Assembly (NCBI RefSeq): GCF_009833095.1
Contig: NZ_QRCB01000019.1
Location: 1-64,000, forward strand
Reading direction: 5' to 3'
Length of the DNA stretch: 64,000 nucleotides
Source: Nitrosomonas sp. JL21
GTDB lineage: Bacteria > Pseudomonadota > Gammaproteobacteria > Burkholderiales > Nitrosomonadaceae
Shown: piece after piece, positions 16,133-17,977 of the stretch
How positions within the stretch are numbered: the first letter of the stretch is position 1
How the letters are laid out: every line of letters starts with the position of its first letter
Translations under genes and position numbers: made by a program
The notes under the pieces: generated by a model
The model's input: only the letters and a program-made list of their open reading frames with translations
What the model was told of the DNA's origin: nothing
The model's database searches: none

Positions 16133-16729
16133 ATGTCTCAATTGCATAACGCCACCTTCTTTACCTCTGTAAATCATTTAAACGATTTGCCAAAGCATGC
16201 GGGAATTGAAATTGCATTTGCGGGCAGATCTAACGCTGGAAAATCAAGTGCTATTAATACACTGTCTAACAGAAATCGCCTAGCTTTTGTCAGCAAAACA
16301 CCTGGACGTACTCAACAGATTAATTTTTTTAAATTGAAGGCCGAAAATTTCCTGGTTGATTTACCAGGATACGGATATGCCAATGTTCCTTATTCGATTC
16401 GGCAACATTGGCAAAATTTGTTAAGTAAATACTTACAAACTCGCCAATCTCTGAAAGGAATGGTACTCATAATGGATATTCGTCATCCTCTTCAAGTACT
16501 AGATGTTCAGATGCTTGATTGGTTTTCTCCAACTGGGAAAGCAGTTCATATATTATTGACTAAAGCTGATAAGCTGAGCAAACAACGAGCTCAGAATACT
16601 CTAAAAGAAGTTTCTCTATTTGTTAACAATACTTATCCTCAATGCAGTATCCAATTATTTTCAAGCTTGAATGCAACCGGCGTCGACGAAGCGAGTACGT
16701 TAATTAACCAGTGGTTCGAGCGCCAATGA
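16133..16729 (+). CDS. engB: Ribosome biogenesis GTPase EngB/YihA
   Basis: A 198-residue essential-type GTPase for 50S assembly. The G motifs are all present: GRSNAGKSS (G1, residues about 31-39), TPGRTQQ (G2), DLPGYG (G3), TKAD (G4) and a terminal SSLNATG region (G5). It starts 12 bases after coaX. The downstream gap holds the hairpin element that precedes hemB. Confidence 0.95.
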
Positions 16730-16793
16730 TGTATAGGGGAGAGTAAACATTTTTATGAAGAAAAAATATGTGGTTTTGATAGGCAATAAAAAA

Positions 16794-16873
16794 CCCCCGG
16801 TTAAAGGGGAGTAAAACCGGGGGGAGCTGCCTTAATATCACTTAAGGCCCTGTCTCAGGGAGGGAAGACAGGG
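16794..16873 (+). ncRNA. Three-hairpin structured RNA upstream of hemB
   Basis: Three consecutive perfect stems are visible. CCCCCGGTT pairs with AACCGGGGG (16794-16802 with 16815-16823). GCCTTAA pairs with TTAAGGC (16829-16835 with 16842-16848). CCCTGTCT pairs with AGACAGGG (16848-16855 with 16866-16873). Loop 1 and loop 3 expose GGA motifs (AAAGGGGAGTAA and CAGGGAGGGA), and GGA occurs seven times between 16808 and 16904. I recall that a conserved RNA structure upstream of hemB has been reported in betaproteobacteria; whether this is that element I cannot verify. It could be a 5' leader of hemB or a separate small RNA that binds CsrA/RsmA. Confidence 0.65.
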
Positions 16874-16942
16874 GACACGATCAAGATGTCCATGTATAGG
16901 AGGATATAGTGATTCAATAAGTTCCCTTGAGTTTTTTAATAA

Positions 16943-17977
<1,035 letters not shown>

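Follow-up and report, generated by a model that had tools for sequence, protein, structure and literature searches.

The 64,000-nucleotide stretch of Nitrosomonas sp. JL21 DNA analyzed here (the window) contains a cluster of strong stems in front of hemB, which raises the question to which RNA these stems belong, from which strand it is transcribed and whether it acts on hemB. The original prediction read the cluster on the plus strand as a three-stem RNA with GGA-rich loops of the kind bound by CsrA/RsmA, which could control hemB as a leader or be a separate small RNA. Several of the underlying observations were confirmed. The three strong tandem stems are present in the sequence, the hemB start (16970) has no visible Shine-Dalgarno sequence, and the plus strand carries seven GGA motifs (16808, 16823, 16859, 16863, 16873, 16899 and 16902), a number reached or exceeded in 2 of 547 window tiles, the mean being 1.85 per 117 bases.

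The element is a minus-strand small RNA gene of the anti-hemB family

The covariance-model search proposed with the original prediction gave a single match above the cut-off in the window. This is RF02837 (anti-hemB), which covers positions 16875-16786 of the minus strand with 63.2 bits at a gathering cut-off of 49.5 bits and is also the only RF02837 match above the cut-off in the whole genome. The element lies upstream of hemB in antisense orientation to this gene. The original prediction also mentioned an RNA conserved in front of hemB in betaproteobacteria and predicted by comparative genomics, which indeed exists as this family; the RNA itself is thus already known, and its homologue ncS04 of Burkholderia cenocepacia is expressed with a length of 105 nt and a 3' end mapped by RACE (PMC5688073). 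The Nitrosomonas RNA resembles anti-hemB/ncS04 in sequence, in the succession SL1-SL2-terminator, in strand, in the gene order hemB<- RNA-> <-engB and in its predicted length of about 105 nt; the differences are the 5' hairpin SL0, which the Rfam model does not include, the published promoter analysis of B. cenocepacia, which reports no sigma-specific motifs, and the genus.

16786..16891, minus strand: small RNA gene (anti-hemB family), about 106 nt; RF02837, model R1, four-hairpin fold
16873..16891, minus strand: SL0, 5' hairpin GGACAU...GUGUCC; fold and covariation, outside the Rfam model
16849..16872, minus strand: SL1, C-rich loop CCCUCCCU (loop at about 16864-16857); fold, loop conservation
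16829..16848, minus strand: SL2, GCCUUAA...UUAAGGC; fold, covariation of 6/7 pairs in betaproteobacteria
16794..16823, minus strand: SL3, terminator CCCCCGGUU...AACCGGGGG with loop UUACUCCCCUUU, followed by U6; terminator scan, fold, covariation

When both strands were scanned, only the minus strand showed an intrinsic terminator, followed by a run of T, for the element. The sequence 16891-16786 of this strand folds into four hairpins with -44.1 kcal/mol and z = -5.8, whereas the plus-strand fold is weaker (z = -2.6). In the paired columns G-U is far more frequent than A-C, with 41 versus 6 cells in the alignment of betaproteobacteria and 95 versus 24 in that of gammaproteobacteria, a bias that argues for the minus strand being the transcribed one. 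The element is therefore a minus-strand gene, and its product represents the anti-hemB family of small RNAs in Nitrosomonas. Its predicted 5' end, placed from the promoter, is 16891 and its 3' end is at about 16788; a model built from other betaproteobacteria (R1, see below) matches positions 16891-16789 of the minus strand with 73.1 bits (E 6e-16).

Since the RF02837 match is on the minus strand, the original prediction had read the complement: a structured RNA is present, but on the opposite strand, and to the three stems a fourth, the 5' hairpin at 16891-16873, has to be added. The possibility of a separate small RNA, which the original prediction also raised, is supported by the RF02837 match. 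In contrast, a plus-strand hemB leader or small RNA with CsrA/RsmA-binding GGA loops is very improbable. Two groups of the seven GGA motifs do fall within hairpin loops, but the plus-strand GGA are the complement of C-rich loops, and the GGAGGA in the 3' flank corresponds, on the other strand, to the -10 region of the promoter. On the transcribed strand there is one GGA, at the predicted 5' end, and none of the repeated GGA in loops that characterizes RNAs sequestering CsrA/RsmA. The Rfam match, the terminator, the conserved promoter and the G-U bias are all on the minus strand, the plus strand folds less well, and in gammaproteobacteria the RNA occurs without an adjacent hemB. This reading was dropped on the strand evidence.

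Covariation supports the hairpins

In a first consensus fold of all 56 betaproteobacterial sequences SL0 did not appear, since SL1 of Nitrosomonas is out of register in that alignment; the model was therefore built from the betaproteobacteria excluding Nitrosomonas (R1). A second model was built from the gammaproteobacterial members (R2). In 36 betaproteobacterial sequences from outside Nitrosomonas pairing is found in 93.8% of the cells and drops to 33-55% when the partners are slid by 1-3 columns. Seventeen of 28 pairs are changed on both sides (mean of shuffled alignments 7.9; 0 of 500 shuffles as high), with a covariation score of 0.208 versus 0.116 after shuffling. Among 84 matches at gammaproteobacterial loci all 27 pairs, including those of SL1, are changed on both sides (598 cells versus 165 shuffled; covariation score 0.652 versus 0.161) in an alignment that was fitted to the model and is thereby favoured. 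For SL0 the pairs changed on both sides number 6/7 in betaproteobacteria and 6/6 in gammaproteobacteria. SL1 is invariant in betaproteobacteria and so carries no covariation information there. Covariation thus backs SL0, SL2 and SL3 in betaproteobacteria and all four hairpins in gammaproteobacteria; the compensatory changes on which the original prediction had made its structured RNA depend are abundant in relatives.

The loops are the conserved sequence of the family. CUCC is found within the SL1 loop in 100% of the betaproteobacteria and 95% of the gammaproteobacteria, and other loops often contain CCCC; the loop of the terminator SL3 contains CUCCCC. As judged from sequence, the C-rich loops CCCUCCCU and CUCCCC resemble the anti-Shine-Dalgarno sequence of 16S rRNA.

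A conserved sigma-E type promoter precedes the RNA

16919..16925, minus strand: -35 element GGAACTT, sigma-E (RpoE/AlgU) type; GGAACT in 19/19 congeners
16897..16901, minus strand: -10 element TCCTA after a 17-nt spacer; TCTTA in most congeners

RpoE/AlgU promoters have the form GGAACTT-N16/17-TCnnA. GGAACT is located 49-54 nt upstream of SL1 in all 19 congeners, and an alignment of 18 of them shows a TCTTA-like box after a further 16-17 nt. Under a strict definition (GGAACTT allowing one mismatch, a spacer of 14-18 nt, TCnnA) the promoter motif is present in 16/19 congeners, 10/13 other betaproteobacteria and 62/107 gammaproteobacterial loci, compared with about 1% of shuffled upstream regions. 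The motif is located at -45 to -66 from SL1, mostly at 45-60 nt, and this distance is similar across the groups. The other 45 of the 107 gammaproteobacterial loci, many of them with near matches such as TCTAT, count against an RpoE-driven RNA. A scan for sigma-70 promoters gave no minus-strand candidate for the element. RpoE is encoded in the genome (315.5 bits, cut-off 236), and upstream of its own gene lies TGAACTAACTCTGTAAGCGGATTGTCTTTAG, i.e. TGAACTAA...TCTTTAG, which is similar in form to the RNA promoter.

When the named genomes were searched without any RNA model for a GGAACTT-type motif combined with CTCCCTGAG, at least 80 loci were obtained, at least 66 of them at hemB, engB or polA. 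The matches listed include Nitrosomonas, Nitrosospira, Thiobacillus, Dechloromonas, Aromatoleum, Thioalkalivibrio, Steroidobacteraceae and others.

From the motif we infer that the RNA of Nitrosomonas sp. JL21 may be under sigma-E control. Alternatively, it could be a trans-acting RNA with C-rich loops that is transcribed by a housekeeping sigma factor, GGAACTT not being used by RpoE in this genus. In B. cenocepacia qPCR revealed no significant change of ncS04 in biofilm, stationary phase, starvation, glucose, osmotic stress, low pH or low iron (PMC5688073), a finding that is in line with the housekeeping alternative and counts against envelope stress as the explanation; the motif is also missing at the sX13 and Spot 42 loci. 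Against this stand the conservation of GGAACT in 19/19 congeners, the similar distance of the motif across both groups and the experimentally shown dependence of ErsA on sigma22/AlgU (PMC5819304). We consider transcription by a housekeeping sigma factor unlikely and prefer control by RpoE.

hemB is a neighbour in betaproteobacteria only

16133..16729, plus strand: engB (yihA/ysxC), convergent with the RNA; neighbour kept in beta- and gammaproteobacteria
16970..17977, plus strand: hemB, divergent from the RNA; neighbour in betaproteobacteria only

The search with RF02837 covered 61 genomes, JL21 and its relatives, of which 54 had a match, and 369 genomes of the class. Most class-wide matches were below the Rfam cut-off, and their genomic context was therefore examined; betaproteobacteria were separated from the rest by kinship and gene context. 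The named congeners are Nitrosomonas with HemB 80-85% identical. Each of four other, complete congeners carries the ammonia monooxygenase gene in three copies, and subunit A gave no match in our draft genome or in one congener draft (G377), probably because identical copies collapsed in the assembly.

engB is found near 104 of 139 RF02837 loci. hemB lies beside the RNA in 19/19 congeners, all of which have both genes, and in 10/13 other betaproteobacteria, but at none of the 107 remaining loci. These 107 loci have engB in 74 cases, polA in 66 and at least one of both in 89 (within about 1.5 kb). The gene order is hemB<- RNA-> <-engB in betaproteobacteria, matching the <- -> <- arrangement reported for ncS04 (PMC4603805), and polA-> RNA-> <-engB in gammaproteobacteria, where polA stands in the place of hemB. 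A search of 299 genomes of the phylum with R2 under strict filters gave no match outside the class.

The name anti-hemB suggests a cis-antisense RNA or a transcriptional-interference device that controls hemB. The divergent layout is kept in betaproteobacteria and 79 bp separate the predicted RNA start (16891) from that of hemB, but the RNA is directed away from hemB, and an overlap with the hemB mRNA requires hemB transcription from beyond 16891. The hemB start ranked 66 of 67 ORF starts of the window in a crude duplex energy scan, which favours GC-rich regions, ignores opening costs and is no target prediction, so that the low rank of hemB alone was used. The RNA also occurs without hemB in gammaproteobacteria. 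Cis control of hemB is disfavoured by geometry and by these loci, and we regard it as improbable; the proposed role as a hemB leader is disfavoured for the same reasons. The best explanation is that hemB is a mere neighbour in betaproteobacteria, and that the RNA is not its leader and need not regulate it. No result argues for a direct effect on hemB.

Some loci deviate in arrangement or copy number. At five of them (L082, L089, L093, L105, L118) the RNA is inverted, lying on the engB strand and convergent with polA. Some gammaproteobacteria have two to five tandem copies per polA/engB intergenic region (L098, L103, L108, L104), which recall multi-copy sibling sRNAs, and genome G639, of the same order, has four copies, two of them in tandem. 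Genome G021 has one RNA beside engB (L122) and a relocated pair, two R2 matches of about 43.6 bits with no engB or polA nearby (L173:1495-1618 and 1734-1869). In our own genome two weak RF02837 matches of 20-21 bits (C59:8347-8436 and C18:79853-79941), far below the cut-off, are either chance or distant paralogues.

Relation to ErsA, sX13 and Spot 42

ErsA is located between polA and engB (PMC8575079). The RNA shares with ErsA/Pseudomon-1 (RF01719) the polA-engB slot at the level of the family, the C-rich stem-loops and, at motif level, the promoter: sigma22/AlgU dependence of ErsA has its counterpart in GGAACTT-N17-TCCTA here, and the ErsA promoter TGAACTT-N17-TCATA at L148 matches the anti-hemB motif. 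In the window engB is present, but hemB takes the place of polA. sX13 of Xanthomonas (RF02232) lies downstream of polA, and its C-rich loops repress mRNAs that carry G-rich motifs close to the start codon (PMC3771888); a multi-hairpin RNA with C-rich loops is also predicted here. sX13 differs in having no sigma-E motif upstream, in its reported independence of Hfq and in that engB is not adjacent within 1.5 kb at three loci; its Hfq independence and missing motif indicate that control differs between branches of the family.

R2 scored 62.2 bits (1e-11) in the window, 31.9 bits (5e-5) at sX13 loci and 20.9 bits (0.014) at ErsA, compared with 19.2 bits for the unrelated PrrF locus, so that sX13 is supported and ErsA marginal. 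R1 reached gammaproteobacterial loci at up to 71 bits; these sequences were first retrieved with RF02837, and their likeness to it is partly selection, which leaves neighbourhood and promoter unaffected. Sub-threshold matches to the ErsA model fell at polA/engB loci in 11 of 12 cases, several coinciding with RF02837 matches, and those to the sX13 model in 6 of 12; at L098 four tandem copies matched the anti-hemB, sX13 and ErsA models, all below the cut-off. The ErsA model gave no match in the window or in our genome at E <= 0.001, nor did the sX13 model in the genome.

Spot 42 (RF00021) occupies the corresponding slot of E. coli, polA-spf-yihA(engB), in the same orientation (L065), but has neither C-rich loops nor a sigma-E motif. 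Neither R1 nor R2 matched the spf locus, RF00021 was absent from the window matches, and homology with Spot 42 was dropped, the slot alone being common. The Betaproteobacteria toxic sRNA double hairpins (RF02278) have similar C-rich anti-Shine-Dalgarno loops and differ in having two hairpins; weak matches (26.8-30.3 bits) were found in a few tandem copies of the anti-hemB family.

Start signal and neighbourhood suggest that the RNA is a branch of a widespread engB-adjacent family of envelope-stress sRNAs, which probably also includes sX13 and ErsA. We lean towards the broader reading that anti-hemB, ErsA and sX13 form one ancient beta-/gammaproteobacterial family at the engB locus, mostly controlled by RpoE/AlgU and with C-rich loops mimicking the anti-Shine-Dalgarno sequence, Spot 42 being a replacement or far-diverged relative. 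No literature treating ErsA and sX13 together was found in a search that covered few subscription journals and in which three papers named anti-hemB.

Proposed function

Family membership, strand, covarying structure, conservation of the promoter motif and conserved neighbourhood are established by this analysis. We think it quite likely that the RNA is an RpoE-driven, envelope-stress-induced sRNA that acts in trans and blocks G-rich ribosome-binding sites. Envelope stress would free RpoE, which would transcribe the RNA from the sigma-E type promoter (16925-16897, minus strand), and the RNA of about 106 nt would end at its own terminator. It would then act in trans, perhaps with Hfq, to which ncS04 of B. 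cenocepacia binds (PMC5688073). The C-rich loops, CCCUCCCU in SL1 and CUCCCC in the terminator, could base-pair with ribosome-binding sites rich in G and thereby reduce the translation of matching mRNAs, those with strong Shine-Dalgarno sequences. The anti-Shine-Dalgarno mode of action, the need for Hfq and all targets are proposals, as is sigma-E control in this organism.

New are the conserved sigma-E type promoter, the engB-convergent slot in common with Spot 42, ErsA and sX13, and the model links to sX13 and ErsA. Promoter and locus weaken the link to hemB implied by the name anti-hemB and provide a testable function for this family, that of an RpoE-driven envelope-stress sRNA. Homologues of sX13 were reported only in Xanthomonadaceae, and its authors asked about sRNAs at the polA locus elsewhere (PMC3771888). 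Our analysis bears on this question: related sRNAs appear to be encoded at polA in many gammaproteobacteria and beside hemB in betaproteobacteria.
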